Positions 1,083 to 10,816 of a DNA stretch of 64,000 bases are shown here, one piece after another. Under the pieces are notes generated by a model. It ran no database searches. It worked only from the letters and a program-made list of their open reading frames with translations, and had not been told where the DNA came from. Source of the DNA: Paludibaculum fermentans (GTDB taxonomy: Bacteria > Acidobacteriota > Terriglobia > Bryobacterales > Bryobacteraceae). The position numbers and the translations under genes were made by a program. The stretch lies in NCBI RefSeq assembly GCF_015277775.1, contig NZ_CP063849.1, positions 9,005,501 to 9,069,500 on the forward strand. Direction: 5' to 3'. Positions within the stretch are counted from its first letter, which is position 1, and every line of letters begins with the position of its first letter.

Positions 1083-1101
1083 CGGAAGTCTATGGAAGTC
1101 T

Positions 1102-1542
1102 ATGGATGTTTTCTCCAAAGACAAGCGTTCGGAGGTGATGGCAAAGATCCGGGGAAGAGGAAATCGATCAACGGAGCGCCGAATGGCGGCGCTGTTGCGT
1201 GCGAAAAGGATATCCGGCTGGCAAATGCATCGGGAGGATCTCCCTGGCACGCCGGACTTCTACTTTCCTAATCTTCACTTGGCGCTGTTCATCGATGGAT
1301 GCTTCTGGCACCAATGCCCAAGGTGCTCCAAGCTCCCCGCACAAAACGCCGTGTTTTGGGCCGAGAAGCTATCGAAGAACGTCCGACGGGACAGGCGGAC
1401 ACGTCGGGCATTGAACCGCGCCGGGATACGCGTCTGGCGTCTTTGGGAACATGACCTGGAGCGGAATACGCCTCGTTGCGAGACAGTTGTGTCTAGAATC
1501 GCATCGCTCGTTCTGTCGGCCAAACGAAGCCCATGCGGTTGA
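1102..1542 (+). CDS. vsr: Very short patch repair (Vsr-type) endonuclease
   Basis: Vsr enzymes nick DNA 5' of T:G mismatches left by deamination of 5-methylcytosine and usually accompany a Dcm-type cytosine methylase. The 146-residue product matches the family in length and order of motifs: start MDVFSKDKRSEVMAKIRG, then HREDLPGTPDFYF with the metal-binding aspartate at about residue 52, then FIDGCFWHQCP with the Trp69-His70 pair, and the C-terminal RVWRLWEHDLE. ATG 1102 is chosen because MDVFSK is the conserved family N-terminus, although the frame is open upstream. No cytosine methylase is visible inside the window; it would be expected upstream of position 1. It directly follows the receiver-like gene, in the same lower-GC stretch. 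Confidence 0.93.
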   Translation: MDVFSKDKRSEVMAKIRGRGNRSTERRMAALLRAKRISGWQMHREDLPGTPDFYFPNLHLALFIDGCFWHQCPRCSKLPAQNAVFWAEKLSKNVRRDRRTRRALNRAGIRVWRLWEHDLERNTPRCETVVSRIASLVLSAKRSPCG

Positions 1543-2580: not shown

Positions 2581-2993
2581 TGGAAGAGGACAGACGCGAG
2601 AAGCGGGACGAAGGGGAGCGCGAGCCGGACAGCCTGAGAGCGTGTCGGAAATAGAATGTGCGCCACCTAGGGGAGGCGGGACAGCCCGGGGAAAGGGGAC
2701 GTCCTTGAGTACCTCATTTTACAAGCCATAGAAAATTAACGGCTTACGGTCGCGACCCCTTGCTGTCTCGCGTTTCACCGCCCGAACCCGCCAAAACGTC
2801 CACGACCCCGCTTCACTCCGCAATCCAGCCGAACCCCAAGACTGCGTTCGCCCCGGTCCACGGGACCGCGACCATGCAGCCGTACCCCATGAGCGCGCAC
2901 CCCTGCTGGATCTCCACGCCGAGCGCCCATTCCTCATGCACACCCCCACGTTCAACCAGCCAAGTTCCCGGCACTCACCCTTCCTCCAAATTG
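2581..2993. other. Intergenic region upstream of blaI
   Basis: About 410 bases with no supported gene. The left third is G-rich and resembles degraded repeat sequence (runs such as GGGACAGCCCGGGG near 2680); the right third is C-rich and leads into the AT-richer operator-promoter region at 2991-3040. Short open frames here have no conserved features and no ribosome sites. Confidence 0.5.
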
Positions 2994-3031
2994 ACGAAAG
3001 TTTTCGTTGACAATGACGAAGCTCTTCGTCA
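2994..3031 (+). promoter_or_regulatory. Twin palindromic operator upstream of blaI
   Basis: Two inverted repeats stand side by side. The first is ACGAAA-GT-TTTCGT (2994-3007); the second is TGACGAAG-CT-CTTCGTCA (3014-3031), a perfect 8-bp arm palindrome. Their centres are 22 bp apart, about two helical turns. They overlap the predicted blaI promoter, which is the expected place for the dimeric BlaI/MecI-family repressor to block transcription of its own operon. The sequence differs from the staphylococcal TACA/TGTA operator, as is usual for distant family members. Confidence 0.65.
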
Positions 3032-3040: not shown

Positions 3041-3427
3041 GTGAAAAACAGCCTGCCCAATCCGACCTCCGCCGAATTGGAAATCCTCCAGGTCCTCTGG
3101 GACCACGGACCCCACTCCGTCCGCGAGGTTCAGCACCTGCTCAATCGCGTCAAACCCACGGGTTACACCACCGCATTGAAAATGCTGCAAATCATGACCG
3201 GCAAAGGCTTGGTCACTCGCGACGACACGAGCCGCCCGCAGATCTATAGCCCGCGCTACCCACGCGAGCACACCCAGCGGCAATTGCTGCGCGACCTCGC
3301 GGAGCGCGCCTTCGGCGGCTCTGTCAAAGCCTTGGTCCTGCAGGCTGTCGCCGGCCGCAAATCGTCCCGGCGTGAACTGGAGGAGATGGAAAAACTGCTC
3401 GATCGGCTGGAAGGAGAAAACAAATGA
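3041..3427 (+). CDS. blaI: BlaI/MecI/CopY-family winged-helix repressor
   Basis: 128 residues. The N-terminal half is the winged-helix DNA-binding domain (PTSAELEILQVLWDHGPHSVREVQ, then TTALKMLQIMTGKGLV), and the C-terminal helical part is the dimerisation region, usually including the site cleaved on induction. The family represses its own operon and target genes and is inactivated by the cognate BlaR1/MecR1 membrane peptidase encoded immediately downstream. The start is GTG 3041: no in-frame ATG gives the conserved N-terminus, and the promoter sits directly upstream. The stop overlaps the blaR1 start by ATGA (translational coupling). The signal sensed is unknown; no beta-lactamase is adjacent. 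Confidence 0.93.
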   Translation: MKNSLPNPTSAELEILQVLWDHGPHSVREVQHLLNRVKPTGYTTALKMLQIMTGKGLVTRDDTSRPQIYSPRYPREHTQRQLLRDLAERAFGGSVKALVLQAVAGRKSSRRELEEMEKLLDRLEGENK

Positions 3428-4956
3428 CAGAGCTCGCTCACGCAATCAGCATGGCCCTCCTCCACTTCGTATGGCAGGGCGTTGTCGTCGCATTCCTGTT
3501 GTGGGTCGCCCTGGCGATCCTGGGCCCCCGGCCAGTCCGGCTGCGTTACGCACTCAGTTGCGCCGCGATGCTTGCGATGAGCGCCGCCCCGGTTATCACC
3601 GTCTGCCTCCTCTATCGAGCTCCGCGGCCGGCTGCCGTCTACCAGGGGCCCCCAGCCCAAACTGCGGACGCTGCCAGCACGGCCGCCTTGGCCGTCACCG
3701 CGCTCCTGCCTCGCTGGCTCGCCGCCATTGAAGTCTGGACACTGCCCGTCTGGTCGGCGGGTGTTATCATCCTCGCGCTCCGCTTGCTCTGGAGCTCCCG
3801 CCATGTAGCCCGGCTGCGCCGCGAGGGCGAACCGGCCCCGCCCATTCTGTTGCAGACCGTGTCGCGGTTGGCCGCGCGAGTGGGCGTCTCCCGTTCTGTA
3901 CACGTCCTTCTCTCCCGGTTGGCCGACAGTCCCAGTGTCGTCGGCTGGCTTCGGCCCGTAATCCTCATCCCGCCCGCTTCGTTTTTGAACCTCAGCGCCG
4001 CGCAAGTGGAAGCCGTGCTCGTGCACGAGTTGGCGCACATCCGGCGCCACGACTATCTCGTCAACCTGCTTCAGACCGTGGCCGAAACCGTGCTCTTCTA
4101 CCAGCCCGCCGTCTGGTGGGTTTCCTCGCGCATCCGCGCCGAGCGGGAACTCTGCTGCGACGACGTGGCGGTCGAAATCTGCGGCGATTCGATTGGGTAC
4201 GCGCGAGCCCTCACGCTGCTGGAGCGGGCTCGCCTGGCCCTACCCGAATTCGCGCAAAACAGCGCCACCGGGCCCTTGCTGCACCGGGTCCTCCGGCTCA
4301 CCGGTGCCTCCCAGCCCGCTCCTCGTGTGCCGGCCGCCGTGGCCGTGGGTCTCGCCGCCGTTTGCCTCCTCACCACTGTTCGCTGGGCCCAGGCGCAGCC
4401 GCAAATGGCCGGTGAGGCGCGCGTCTCGAAAGAGGCCGTCTGGGTGGATACCGTGAAATTCGGCGAGTTCCCCGTGCTCGTCCGAGCCCTGGGCGCCATC
4501 ACCGGCCCCGATACAGCCGAGCTGCAGGTGCCCTCTCCGGTTGTCAGCGAGGTTCAACTCGGCCAGAGTGCCTCCGTCGAGGTGGGCCGGGGCATCATCG
4601 CCGCGGGCACGGTCACCCGCATCGATTCACCACCCTCGAATGGGACGGTGCGCGTGGTAATTCAGTTCCAGGCCCCGGCAGGACAGCCCGCCGGCCACCC
4701 GGTGGATGGCGCCATTCGGATCAAAGTGCTCACGGACGTGGTCTACGTGGGTCGTCCCGCCGATCAGTCGGGCGGCACGGAAGCTTCGTTGTTCAAGTTC
4801 GAGGCGGACCGCAAGTCCGCAACTCGCGTGAAGGTCCGGTTCGGCGCCGCGTCCATAAATAGCATTCAGGTGCTCGAAGGCCTGCAACCCGGCGATCGCA
4901 TCATCCTCTCCGACACGACGAAATTCAAGGGCTACGACCGCGTTCGCCTCGAATAG
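3424..4956 (+). CDS. blaR1: BlaR1-like M56 membrane metallopeptidase fused to an efflux-adaptor-like C-terminus
   Basis: 510 residues. Membrane segments lie at about 8-30, 38-64, 103-130 and 306-325. The cytoplasmic zinc protease motif is HELAH at 201-205, followed by ERELCCDD from 240, as in MecR1/BlaR1 peptidases that act on the partner repressor. In place of a penicillin-binding sensor domain, the extracytoplasmic part (about 330-510) resembles the beta-barrel and membrane-proximal domains of RND/MacA-type membrane fusion proteins: VSEVQLGQSASVEVGRG, VYVGRPADQS, then VLEGLQPGDRIILSD and a YDRVRLE end. The gene overlaps blaI by 4 nt. The fusion suggests a sensor of envelope or efflux-related signals rather than beta-lactams; that is inference. 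Confidence 0.88.
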   Translation: MTELAHAISMALLHFVWQGVVVAFLLWVALAILGPRPVRLRYALSCAAMLAMSAAPVITVCLLYRAPRPAAVYQGPPAQTADAASTAALAVTALLPRWLAAIEVWTLPVWSAGVIILALRLLWSSRHVARLRREGEPAPPILLQTVSRLAARVGVSRSVHVLLSRLADSPSVVGWLRPVILIPPASFLNLSAAQVEAVLVHELAHIRRHDYLVNLLQTVAETVLFYQPAVWWVSSRIRAERELCCDDVAVEICGDSIGYARALTLLERARLALPEFAQNSATGPLLHRVLRLTGASQPAPRVPAAVAVGLAAVCLLTTVRWAQAQPQMAGEARVSKEAVWVDTVKFGEFPVLVRALGAITGPDTAELQVPSPVVSEVQLGQSASVEVGRGIIAAGTVTRIDSPPSNGTVRVVIQFQAPAGQPAGHPVDGAIRIKVLTDVVYVGRPADQSGGTEASLFKFEADRKSATRVKVRFGAASINSIQVLEGLQPGDRIILSDTTKFKGYDRVRLE

Positions 4957-6424: not shown

Positions 6425-9400
6425 CTAGGGAATCGTCCAGCTACCCGCCGCCACCCAACCTGAGTCCCGCCGAAGCGGATCCTGCATCCGCATATACATT
6501 TGTTTGGCCCCCGACATCGGCGCCTTCAGGTGAACGGGAACGCTGACTCTCACCACCTCCCCTGGGCGCGCAATCGTCGTCAACGCCGGATCCACCGAAC
6601 ATGCACTGCTGTCCAGCGCCGCCGACGCGGCGCCCGGACTCACCGGGCCGAGGAAGAAGCCCACATCACTCGAGTACATCCACAGGCTGTTGCCCGCATG
6701 GTCATAGTGGACGAAACAGAAGGGCTGTCCGCCGCCGTCCGTCGCCGCGGCGATCAGGAACTGCGACCACGCGGCCGGTGCGCCTGCAAACCCGGCCGGA
6801 TCCTGATAGGTCAGCGCGAACGCCTGCTGTGCACCCGACCCGGAGGCCGGCTGAACACCCATGTTGCCGATAGGAGTCGGCGCAGTGGTCCACGTTCCGC
6901 GCTGCACCCAACCCGTATCGATGTCCCCCGTCGTATACGCCCGCAGGTAGATGTTCAGCGTCGCCGCCGTCTTGAAAACCGGGCGGGCATTCAGCGTGAA
7001 AGTGGTGCCGCTGCCGGTCACACTTGAGGTTTGAGTGTTGATCGCGCAGAGTTTGTTCTGAAGCGCCGCACTCGCGGTGCCGGGCTGAACCGGCCCTACG
7101 AAGAACCCACCATCTCCATAGAGCCAGAATCCATCGCCTCGCACATCGTAATGCAGGAAACAATACGGCTGGCCGCCCCCGTCCGCCGCCGCGGCCACTA
7201 GGAATTGAACAAAGAGGAGGTCGGTATGGCCCAGGCCCGCCGAGTAGGTCGCCGTAAACGCGCCCGAAGCGCCTGACCCGCTGGCAGGCGACACACTGAC
7301 CGCGTCAGCCGACGGGGTCGCCGGAACAAAGACGGCGTGGACCGCGCGAGGCGCTGTCATGCTGAGGCTCTGCGACCCGTTGCTGCCGGTAAGGTCGCCA
7401 CTGAAGCCCGCGAATCGGTAACCCCCGTCCGGGGTCGCTGTTATGGAGACCAGGTAATTCGAATCCAGGTAACCTGTGGCGGGCGCGATGGTCCCGCCCG
7501 CGGAAGCCGTGGTGGTGAGCAGATACTGGGTTTTGAAAGTGAGCGAATAGGTGCCGGACTCCCACAAGGTGAAGGACCGCTTCGTGGCAGCCCCACCGTC
7601 GGACCAACCCTGCAGCACATAGCGTGTGCCCGCGGTCGCTCCAGGCTGTATGGGCGCGACTTCCACCGTGTGCGTGCTGCCGGCGCTCCAGTGGAAAGTT
7701 TGCGCCGTGGCATAGGTCACGCCGTCAACCGCATAGGCCTGGCCCGCAGGCTGCGTGGAGAACGATACCGCCGCCTGCGGAGAAACCGCGGTGATGGCCG
7801 CGCTGTGGGCCAGACCCGCCGTGACCGCCGCTACTTGAGTTGCACTGCCGGGCAACGTGGTCTGCCCCTTGTCGTTGGCGCCCCACGCCTGCAGCGTCCC
7901 ATTCCATTGCAGTGCCAGCGCGTGGGCTCCTCCTGCGGCCACTTGGCGCACGTCCTGCAAATTGGCGGGGATTCCCGCTTGGATGCTCGCCGGATTGTTT
8001 CCCCAGGCCGCCACCGTCCCATTCCGGAGTGCCGCCAGGCTGAACTGCGTGCCCGCTGCAACAGATTCCACAGCCGCCAGATTCGCCGGAACCGTGCTCT
8101 CGCCCGCGCCGTTGCTGCCCCAGGCAATCACCGTGCCGTCACCCAGCACCGCCAGCGAATGATCCCCTCCCGCTGCAATGGCAACAGCGTTTTGAACCGA
8201 GGCTGGCACGCTGCTCTGCCCGCTGCCGTTCGCGCCCCAGGCCGCCACACTGCCGCTGCTCGTCAGCGCCAGGCTGTGGTGCGCCCCGGCCGCAATGGCG
8301 AGCACGTTAGTCAGATTGGCCGGGACACTGGACTGGCCGCTGCCGTTGTCCCCCCACGCCGTCACCTGCCCCGCGGAACTCAGCGCCAGCGTGTGGTCCA
8401 GGCCCGCTGCGAGCGCGATCACACTGGTCAAGTTGAACGGCACTTGGGACTGCTGCGTGTCGTTCGCGCCCCACGCTGCCACCGTGCCGTCGCCCCGCAG
8501 GGCCGCCGTGTGCCTGCCTCCGGCGGCCAGGGCCGTCAGATTCGTCAAACCGTTGGGCAGCGAACACTGGCCGGCGGCGTGATCCCCCCAACAGAGCACC
8601 GCATTGCCGGCGCCGGAAACCTCGGTCGGGGCCGTCGCCTCGACTATGCTTGCGTTCGTGGACCTCACCTGCATCACCGGTGCGATGCTGCTGGTGGTAT
8701 TCGCCGGGATCGAGACAACCGCCTGTATCGCCGGAAATGCCTGCCCTGCCGCGAGCGTGTCGGCGCGGCTGCACGTCGAACCGGAACAGCTCCAGCCGGT
8801 GCCCCAGAGGCTCTTGATCGTCACGTTCGTGAATGTCACCGACACCCCGCTCACCGCGGTCGTGCCTTCGTTCAGCACGCGGCCCGCGAAGCTCGCATTC
8901 TGCTGACCCTGGATGAAAGGGCCCGCCCCGCGCAGGGTGGCTCGCAGCGCGGTCCCCGTCTGCGCCACGAAACTCGCGGTGACCTGGTCTGGAGCGTTCA
9001 TCACGGTACGAGCGGGGTTGTTGCCTGTCGTGCCGAGAGAGCCGCCGGTGAACTTGGAGAACACAAAGCCGGGCAATGGCGTTGCCTGGATCAGTACACT
9101 GGACCCGATATCGAAGTACCCGCCGGCCGGGCTGATCGTCCCGCCGGTGCCCGCGCTGGTCGCCAGACGGACCCTCGGCTTGAAGTCCAGGGTGTACGCT
9201 GCGTCAGCGGAGCCGATCGCAATGCTGTGCGTGGCGGCCCCTCCGTCGCTCCAGGACGCAAAATTCCATTCCACCCCGTTGCCCGATGAGAACTGCTTCT
9301 GCCCGGTGGAGATCGTGTGGGTTCCTCCCGGCGCCACTCGCACCGCGTTGTAATAGGTAGCGGGGATGCCGTCTATGGCGAACTTCGGCGAATCAACCGC

Positions 9401-10816
9401 ATAACTCTTCACGTCGAAGTGCTGGGCGGTGACCTGCACGGATAAAATCACTGGCGGTGCGGAAAGGATGACCAGGAAAAAGCTGGGCGTCCCCGCAATG
9501 GCTCTGGCGGAGGCCAGGGAACCCGCTGCCAGCGCGACATTCGGCCACGGAGTGACTTGACTCGTAGACGGGCCCCAGGCCCGGACGATGCCGTCGTCCT
9601 GCAGCGCCATCACATAGCTATCGCCGGCCAGTGCAACCACTCGGTTCAGGCCCGCTGGCGGAGTCAACAGTTCGCTGGTCCTTGCCTTGTCCCACACCAC
9701 CACCGTTCCGTCGGCCCGGATGCCGGCCGCCGTGTCCAGATCCACTCGCTCCACTCGCACAAGTGTTCCCAGGTTGGCCGGAATGGGCGGCACCCGTCCG
9801 CCCCACGAAACCACTTTCCCCTGTGCGGTGAGCACGAAAGCGCCTCCTGTGCCTGCCGAGAGCTGCACGACGTTCGAGAGGGCGGCGGGAATAAAAACCT
9901 CTGCCGGCATTGCCAGGGACACGGCTTGGACCGTCCCCTCCGCGCTCAACGCCAGGGCAAAGTTCGGCCCCGCAACAATCGAGACAATGTTCGACAAGCT
10001 GGATGTGTCCGGTGCCGGATAACTCGTGCTCCAGGCAACAACATGCCCGTCACTCTTCAGGGCGAAGAACGTCGTGTCGCCCGCCGCCACCGCGATCACA
10101 TTCTTCAACCCCGCGGGCAGCGGCCAATTGTTCGAATGGTCGAGGACCCATTGCACGACAGTCCCGTCTTTGCGCAGCGCCAATCCACCCAATCGCGAAC
10201 CGGCAATCGCCACCGCATCCGACAGGGTACGCGGCGCCAGGGACGCAACGGAAGGCAGGGCACCATTCTCCTGGCCATACAGCCATCCCTCCGAGGCAAT
10301 ACTCGTCGCATCGGTGGCTACGTTATCGCTGATGTTCGAATCCCCACCGCCTGACACCGTCACCAGATTGTTGATCGAGCCCGGAGCGTTCGCCCCCACT
10401 GTGGCCAGCACCGTAATGGTGGGTAGCATCTGTCCGGCGGCGAAGCTGTCGGTCCGGCTGCAGGTGCTCGCGGCGCAGGTCCAGCCGGGCCCCGACATCG
10501 AAGCAATGCTGATACCGGACGGCATCGACTCCACCACCGCGATGGTTCCGGAAGTGGCGCCCCCACCCACGTTCGTCACCCGGATCAGATACACGGCATT
10601 GGTCTGTCCCCTCAGGAAACTGCTGGTGTGGGTGACCTGGATATTCAGATCCGGTCCGGCCGCTGCCCCCAAAGGTCGCTGGACCGCGCCCTGCCCGGGA
10701 ATCAGCGAGACCGGCTCCTGCAAGCCACGCTGGACCTGCACCTGGGCGGAACAGGGATGGACGGCCAGAATCAGGCACGAAACCAAAGCAGAAATCGAAG
10801 CGGCAGAATTACGCAA
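6425..10816 (-). CDS. Giant exported RCC1-repeat protein with DUF11-like, InlB-type and duplicated C-terminal domains
   Basis: 1463 residues. A Sec signal peptide (ALVSCLILAVHPCSAQ) is followed by a CARDB/DUF11-like beta-sandwich (about 50-170), a block of degenerate RCC1/BNR-type repeats (about 190-450), a first divergent InlB-like repeat (GGTISPAGGYFDIGSSVLIQ), a second DUF11-like sandwich, and a second, better preserved RCC1 block (about 745-1015) with VAAGxxHxLAL...G.V.AWG.N units. A second InlB-like repeat (GGTIAPATGYLDSNYLVSI) and two copies of a ~120-residue domain (PASGSGA start; FLxAAAxDGGGQPxCFxHYD; GPVxPGxASAAL) end the protein. The whole tandem architecture DUF11-RCC1-InlB appears twice. 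A secreted or surface adhesion/binding role is likely; no enzyme motif is seen. Confidence 0.88.
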   Translation of the reverse strand: MRNSAASISALVSCLILAVHPCSAQVQVQRGLQEPVSLIPGQGAVQRPLGAAAGPDLNIQVTHTSSFLRGQTNAVYLIRVTNVGGGATSGTIAVVESMPSGISIASMSGPGWTCAASTCSRTDSFAAGQMLPTITVLATVGANAPGSINNLVTVSGGGDSNISDNVATDATSIASEGWLYGQENGALPSVASLAPRTLSDAVAIAGSRLGGLALRKDGTVVQWVLDHSNNWPLPAGLKNVIAVAAGDTTFFALKSDGHVVAWSTSYPAPDTSSLSNIVSIVAGPNFALALSAEGTVQAVSLAMPAEVFIPAALSNVVQLSAGTGGAFVLTAQGKVVSWGGRVPPIPANLGTLVRVERVDLDTAAGIRADGTVVVWDKARTSELLTPPAGLNRVVALAGDSYVMALQDDGIVRAWGPSTSQVTPWPNVALAAGSLASARAIAGTPSFFLVILSAPPVILSVQVTAQHFDVKSYAVDSPKFAIDGIPATYYNAVRVAPGGTHTISTGQKQFSSGNGVEWNFASWSDGGAATHSIAIGSADAAYTLDFKPRVRLATSAGTGGTISPAGGYFDIGSSVLIQATPLPGFVFSKFTGGSLGTTGNNPARTVMNAPDQVTASFVAQTGTALRATLRGAGPFIQGQQNASFAGRVLNEGTTAVSGVSVTFTNVTIKSLWGTGWSCSGSTCSRADTLAAGQAFPAIQAVVSIPANTTSSIAPVMQVRSTNASIVEATAPTEVSGAGNAVLCWGDHAAGQCSLPNGLTNLTALAAGGRHTAALRGDGTVAAWGANDTQQSQVPFNLTSVIALAAGLDHTLALSSAGQVTAWGDNGSGQSSVPANLTNVLAIAAGAHHSLALTSSGSVAAWGANGSGQSSVPASVQNAVAIAAGGDHSLAVLGDGTVIAWGSNGAGESTVPANLAAVESVAAGTQFSLAALRNGTVAAWGNNPASIQAGIPANLQDVRQVAAGGAHALALQWNGTLQAWGANDKGQTTLPGSATQVAAVTAGLAHSAAITAVSPQAAVSFSTQPAGQAYAVDGVTYATAQTFHWSAGSTHTVEVAPIQPGATAGTRYVLQGWSDGGAATKRSFTLWESGTYSLTFKTQYLLTTTASAGGTIAPATGYLDSNYLVSITATPDGGYRFAGFSGDLTGSNGSQSLSMTAPRAVHAVFVPATPSADAVSVSPASGSGASGAFTATYSAGLGHTDLLFVQFLVAAAADGGGQPYCFLHYDVRGDGFWLYGDGGFFVGPVQPGTASAALQNKLCAINTQTSSVTGSGTTFTLNARPVFKTAATLNIYLRAYTTGDIDTGWVQRGTWTTAPTPIGNMGVQPASGSGAQQAFALTYQDPAGFAGAPAAWSQFLIAAATDGGGQPFCFVHYDHAGNSLWMYSSDVGFFLGPVSPGAASAALDSSACSVDPALTTIARPGEVVRVSVPVHLKAPMSGAKQMYMRMQDPLRRDSGWVAAGSWTIP

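Follow-up and report, generated by a model that had tools for sequence, protein, structure and literature searches.

A BlaI-paired M56 protease of Paludibaculum fermentans carries a shortened MacA-type adaptor in place of the BlaR1 sensor domain

Beta-lactams are the known signal of the receptor BlaR1, and the gene described here raises the question of what such a receptor would respond to once its outer domain has been exchanged. The gene lies in a 64,000-nucleotide stretch of the Paludibaculum fermentans genome (hereafter the window; Table 1). A sequence-only reading had proposed that it encodes a BlaR1-type M56 peptidase fused to an adaptor-like C-terminus, the beta-lactam sensor being replaced by an adaptor barrel and membrane-proximal domain. 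Both proposals held, the first on sequence, recurrence in four genera and predicted structure, and the second on sequence profiles, structural alignment and the lack of a penicillin-binding match. The further suggestion of that reading, a signalling protease that would sense the state of an efflux complex or of the envelope, is a reasonable hypothesis. The M56 domain carries the HEXXH motif and the downstream Glu and aligns with that of Staphylococcus aureus BlaR1 (PDB 8exs) in a profile comparison (E 3.4e-8), with which structural alignment agrees; the generic BlaR1 model of NCBIfam gave 73.9 bits on the fusion against a cut-off of 400. Hydrophobic stretches were located near residues 15-33, 44-62, 99-122 and 301-319. 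In a Pfam search at E<=1 the fusion matched only the M56 and M48 families, and no penicillin-binding sensor domain. The RND_mfp model of NCBIfam matched residues 365-502 (E 9.8e-9) with 34.6 bits, which is under its curated cut-off of 94.9. When the predicted structure was compared with adaptors, its C-terminus aligned with their domains, as the earlier reading would have it, and no long helix that could form an alpha-hairpin was seen past residue 324. The alignment given to AlphaFold contained 38 adaptor and headless pieces (i.e., pieces without lipoyl and hairpin parts), and the predicted model therefore draws in part on the homology it is taken to support.

Table 1. Coordinates of the features discussed. 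Plain positions refer to the window; G and L designations are our handles for genomes and loci.
Feature	Position	Strand	Remarks
M56 protease / headless-adaptor fusion gene	3424..4956	+	510 aa, frame open throughout
M56 peptidase domain, residues 88-264	3685..4215	+	Peptidase_M56 (Pfam) E 4e-28; HELAH 201-205, ERELCCDD from 240
Last transmembrane helix, residues 303-324, entering the putative periplasmic domain	4330..4395	+	hydropathy maximum 301-319; helix 303-324 in predicted model
Headless MacA-type adaptor domain, residues 333-510	4420..4953	+	sequence profiles and predicted structure
Point (residues ~359-365) where full adaptors hold ~195 extra residues (lipoyl and hairpin)	4498..4518	+	profile matching, alignment
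Barrel part, residues ~366-434, diverged from adaptors	4519..4725	+	boundary inferred; four boundary choices tried
Membrane-proximal domain, C-terminal element, residues ~435-510	4726..4953	+	motif RP...F...A...V..G..S...G..GD...SD kept
BlaI/MecI-type repressor gene, 128 aa, GTG start	3041..3427	+	PF03965 E 1.7e-23; NCBIfam BlaI E 4.5e-13, below cut-off
Operator of two ACGA-N6-TCGT dyads in tandem, spaced by 22 nt	2992..3031	+	dyads 2994-3007 and 3016-3029
TTGACA (-35-like) between the two dyads	3007-3012	+	sequence
Fusion in G053	L048:9097-10665		full-length profile match
Fusion in G177	L115:7114-8667		full-length profile match
Fusion in G227	L116:963-2549	minus	full-length profile match
Related full adaptor, own genome	L049:7743-9035		MacA-type, ABC operon
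RND adaptor, AcrA/MexA kind, 12.7 kb left of fusion gene	L050:898-2232	minus	TIGR01730 255.8 bits, cut-off 94.9
AcrB-type pump-like and outer-membrane-channel-like frames beside RND adaptor	L228:8327-13271	minus	by eye

To determine which adaptor parts are absent, a profile built from the C-termini of four such fusions was matched against 39 full adaptors. All 39 matched in two pieces, about 195 residues apart. The first was weak (8-28 bits) and stopped at profile position 27-35 (68 in one adaptor); the second was strong and started at position 33-35 (23 in one). A single-piece match was given by the four fusions, by the free headless proteins L118, L119 and L120, and by the contig-edge fragment L125. 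Since full adaptors match in two pieces and fusions in one, the fusion keeps the N-terminal strand, the barrel and the membrane-proximal domain; the lipoyl and hairpin parts are missing in all four. Residues 35-87 and 284-429 of the full adaptor from the ABC operon of the same genome align with directly consecutive stretches of the fusion, and four full adaptors are 37-45% identical to the window's adaptor domain over aligned columns. According to PMC8277102, lipoyl domains, unlike barrels, appear to make no contact with the transporters studied there, membrane-proximal domains are essential for ATPase activation in the MacB class, and the N-terminal strand of the membrane-proximal domain connects to the inner membrane in membrane-anchored adaptors. 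Following this description, the fusion retains the transporter side of an adaptor and loses the side towards the outer membrane. The last helix of the protease would appear to replace the adaptor's own membrane anchor.

The retained parts have not diverged evenly. Among 29 full adaptors (the 39 thinned to <90% identity), likeness was higher in the barrel (0.71) than in the membrane-proximal part (0.61), an order reversed in none of the 29. In contrast, the barrel fell below the membrane-proximal part in the four fusions (0.38 versus 0.51) and in four other headless sequences, one of them the contig-edge fragment (0.38 versus 0.50), with the membrane-proximal part kept over the barrel in each of the eight. 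Three alternative boundaries reversed the order in 1, 0 and 0 of the 29 full adaptors, as opposed to 8/8 headless sequences. Barrel positions 386, 387 and 389, conserved in adaptors, differ in all four fusions, as do more than half of the cells at the likewise conserved positions 371-376; R444, P445, F457, A466, V471, G474, S477, G486, G490, D491, S496 and D497 are kept in all eight headless sequences. We read this selective keeping as an indication of a function for the membrane-proximal part, most likely one that involves a partner. The same domains could instead sense directly, the barrel and membrane-proximal domain binding a periplasmic compound or an envelope lipid with no transporter involved. 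BlaR1 itself binds its ligand directly, the fusion at the window's locus has no adjoining transporter gene, and PMC8277102 ties membrane-proximal domains to substrate binding, describes ligand binding by the beta-barrel of ZneB and links MacAB to the binding of core lipopolysaccharide. However, the barrel, a reported ligand site, is the most diverged part of the fusion while the membrane-proximal part is kept, and we consider direct ligand sensing somewhat unlikely.

A survey of M56 proteins for the same fusion, a check named in the sequence-only reading, turned up four. A profile made from two complete fusion sequences was run against 237 genomes of the family, with the best six candidates per genome scored, and yielded full-length fusions in four genera (the window genome, G053, G177 and G227), the other three being 42-44% identical to the window's. 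As only 4 of 237 genomes were found with it, most relatives in the family do without the fusion. A headless-domain profile over the same genomes (best 14 candidates per genome scored) ranked exactly these four on top; at E<=1e-36 it matched in 184 of the 237, with a single match in 172 of these, and by these matches the MacA-type adaptor of the family looks widespread and mostly single-copy. Each fusion genome retains a full adaptor elsewhere. Across the 118 M56 frames fetched, which include one shortened copy of the window's frame, the adaptor profile matched the four fusions and, only at E 0.96, one other frame. No further fusion was seen in 396 genomes of the phylum (best three candidates per genome, cut-off E 1e-95) or in 319 of the class (headless profile, best ten per genome, cut-off E 1e-60), samples in which fusions may have been missed because three and ten candidates per genome were scored; three other matches of the class survey stand outside that count (frames 256, 470 and 445 residues long, which match from profile position 15-27 onward). 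In the open-access papers searched, listings and beginnings of abstracts revealed no paper on an M56/adaptor fusion. The rarity of the fusion in the family would suit an artefact or decayed gene, a chance fusion produced by mis-assembly or frameshift. The frames are nevertheless complete and free of stops in four genera, with the junction alike, the zinc-motif residues are intact in all four and the membrane-proximal residues are kept, which makes an artefact hardly credible.

Several other candidates were set aside. Two phylum matches reached model positions 432 and 424, and their tails gave no match to the adaptor profile and looked TonB-like by eye. Five short adaptor frames (in G040, G122, G169, G187 and G156) were rejected as headless fusions: four are cut by a contig end, and the fifth is a disrupted adaptor frame. 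A short adaptor frame in G174 lay outside the five fetched. Free-standing headless adaptors, consisting of barrel and membrane-proximal domain only, were observed at L118:8568-9347 (G237), L119:8662-9306 (G267) and L120:7376-8032 (G408), with starts that are signal-peptide or lipoprotein-like by eye; the first is flanked by ADOP permeases on both sides. The headless piece L125, cut by a contig end, comes from another family (G423). The free-standing adaptors suggest that the shortened adaptor exists as an independent protein or module.

The fusion recurs on two chassis. Among 60 M56 domains placed in one tree, the window's protein falls in a group of 12 (support 100) and the other three fusions in a separate group of 21 (support 96). 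One clade of the four was rejected for the M56 half (AU p 2.6e-54, quick tree) and a single origin for BlaI (p 7.9e-4), the BlaI tree of 95 rows being split as the M56 tree is, with 100/99 for each group; a single origin of the whole fusion gene is rejected on these two trees. The adaptor halves cluster weakly (75/48, long branches). From this weak grouping and the M56/BlaI split it follows that the sensor either passed from chassis to chassis or arose twice by independent truncation. Of the companions in these groups, 2 of 11 were examined in the window's group, both with TonB_C tails, and 4 of 18 in the other, all with DUF3738 (one in part). The tails of ten family M56 proteins examined hold varied C-terminal domains (TonB_C, DUF3738, GWxTD and others), indicating that the protease tolerates different tails. 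In the window genome, the tail of one M56 protein (L003; relatives L033 and L037 in the same genus) shows repeated 'IHGV'-like stretches by eye and matched no Pfam family at E<=0.001. Such variety would fit a structural spacer: the adaptor remnant would do no more than dimerise or stabilise the protease, and the signal would be perceived elsewhere, by the loop that connects helices 2 and 3 or within the membrane. BlaR1 is described as a domain-swapped dimer in PMC9834060. A spacer has no need, however, of a membrane-proximal motif kept in eight of eight sequences, nor of the same shortened domain on two chassis, and we regard this explanation as unlikely.

As in M56/BlaI systems generally, a membrane protease and a BlaI-type repressor share one operon: blaI lies directly upstream of the fusion gene and overlaps it by 4 nt, an arrangement alike at all four fusion loci. 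Tandem dyads around TTGACA precede blaI at all four (by eye), spaced by 22 bases at the window and by 20 at the other three. The 36-base, 22-spaced pattern, allowing <=1 mismatch, was found in 39 of the 237 family genomes at no fewer than 40 sites, and its reversed control gave none among the matches listed. A BlaI frame accompanies 29 of the 30 sites fetched, and at 25 an M56 frame is seen as well in the short flanking stretch examined; the window's 36 bases are identical to a site in G049, whose M56 protein belongs to the window's M56 group. The operator is autoregulatory-looking, common to many BlaI-M56 pairs of the family and not specific to the fusion. The sole fetched site without a BlaI frame (G067, L180:1491-1526) stands before a gene whose start resembles, by eye, that of a PepSY-type membrane protein, and which is a possible regulon member. 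In the window genome the exact dyad occurs once, at this locus, and the dyad search therefore identified no BlaI target outside the operon; sites with two mismatches numbered 23, one being the second dyad of the locus, versus 16 in the control. Control might then run in reverse, with a membrane-tethered adaptor fragment modulating a transporter while protease and BlaI set only its own amount. An autoregulatory operator without a second exact site in the genome would fit this, as would the free headless adaptors found elsewhere and the activation of the MacB ATPase by membrane-proximal domains outlined in PMC8277102. The intact zinc motif and the pairing with BlaI in all four fusions speak against it, and we judge it decidedly unlikely.

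Which class of transporter might be the partner was approached through the related full adaptors. After the adaptor at L049 come an ABC ATPase, an ADOP permease (856.6 bits with TIGR03434, cut-off 622.3), another ATPase, a regulator of the sigma-54 type and a histidine kinase. In the stretches examined around 13 related full adaptors, an ABC ATPase was present at 13/13 and an ADOP-like permease at 11/13 (two on the opposite strand), for which reason we think a partner is likely to be found among MacB/ADOP-type transporters. No relatives of the ATPases or permease of the own-genome operon were found in the 64 kb window or in 15 kb to its left. An ADOP permease lies within ~3 kb at two of the four fusion loci (L048 and L115); such nearness is expected and is not evidence, because the four fusion genomes have at least 56, 56, 58 and 56 scored ADOP matches among 144, 172, 214 and 203 first-look candidates.

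The sequence-only reading had likened the C-terminus to RND/MacA adaptors, and of the two the ABC (MacA/MacB) side fits better, with E 2.3e-28 to the own-genome ABC-operon adaptor, the nearby RND adaptor giving no match at E<=1e-5. The latter is an RND adaptor by profile (E 1.8e-120 with the AcrA model, 9.9e-123 with that of MexA). With the pump-like and channel-like frames beside it, it forms the efflux operon closest to the fusion gene and offers a candidate RND pump on which the adaptor remnant could dock. Its failure to match the fusion makes an RND partner less likely than an ABC one, regulator, glycosidase and DNA-modification genes intervene, and we rate docking on this pump very unlikely. 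A sigma-54 activator and a TetR-type regulator lie beside the RND operon. The DNA-modification genes include a cytosine methylase (DrmMII model, E 5.7e-101; L050:8117-12583 stretch, left of the window start), behind which lies a Vsr-type nicking endonuclease (window 1084-1542, E 1.9e-20), together with one protein with a weak restriction-enzyme match and one frame without a match; by these matches a restriction-modification-like island adjoins the blaI operon. At window positions 6425-10816, on the minus strand, a 1463-residue frame shows many RCC1-type beta-propeller-like repeats by eye.

Based on these observations, we tentatively favour, at somewhat under an even chance, a single-protein receptor of the BlaR1 kind whose sensor has been exchanged and which docks on a MacB/ADOP-type transporter and signals through BlaI cleavage. 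The M56 protease would be an inner-membrane protein whose zinc site faces the cytoplasm, and its last helix, at the place of a MacA-type anchor, would run into the membrane-proximal domain and barrel. The membrane-proximal domain may dock on the periplasmic face of the transporter or substitute for its adaptor subunit, and a switch of the transporter to a substrate-bound, stalled or adaptor-less state would be relayed via the last helix to the protease. Cleavage of the co-encoded BlaI would free the tandem operator and switch on the own operon and possibly other genes. PMC9834060 describes S. aureus BlaR1 as cleaving BlaI directly after a signal from its outer domain has crossed the membrane, and it is by analogy with BlaR1 that the fusion is proposed to pass a membrane-proximal change to the protease and on to BlaI. 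It is tempting to speculate, although we hold this to be doubtful, that the receptor reads the working state or adaptor occupancy of MacB/ADOP-type transporters and answers by destroying a repressor, the same sensor having been fitted to two BlaI-M56 chassis. If so, it would be a proteolytic counterpart of the Bce flux sensors and a possible route by which a two-membrane cell senses an export pump through proteolysis. Its recognisable tail hints at a partner, a MacB-class transporter, and makes the fusion a testable case of M56 receptors changing their input by an outer-domain swap.

Like BlaR1/MecR1, the fusion has an M56 zinc protease with the HEXXH motif, four hydrophobic helices and a C-terminal domain beyond the last of them, and it is encoded together with a BlaI-type repressor and dyad operators; it differs in having an adaptor remnant instead of the penicillin-binding sensor domain. 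With MacA-type adaptors (PDB 5nik and 3fpp, and the L049 adaptor) it shares the barrel, the membrane-proximal domain and the N-terminal strand VW-DTVK-G----VR-LG. Unlike them, it has neither lipoyl domain nor hairpin, is anchored by the protease's helix and lies outside any transporter operon. A lipoyl part, absent from the fusion, is kept by BesA of Borrelia burgdorferi. BesA (PDB 4kks) is a pump adaptor without a hairpin, whereas the fusion's piece is joined to a protease. The permease BceB resembles MacB-class permeases. In Bce modules (BceAB with the kinase BceS), an ABC transporter is complexed with a signalling partner under mutual control, as summarised in PMC10314905. The tie between an ABC transporter and a signalling partner proposed here would be a functional likeness only, as the Bce partner is a histidine kinase, whereas here it would be a protease/repressor pair with an adaptor-derived domain.
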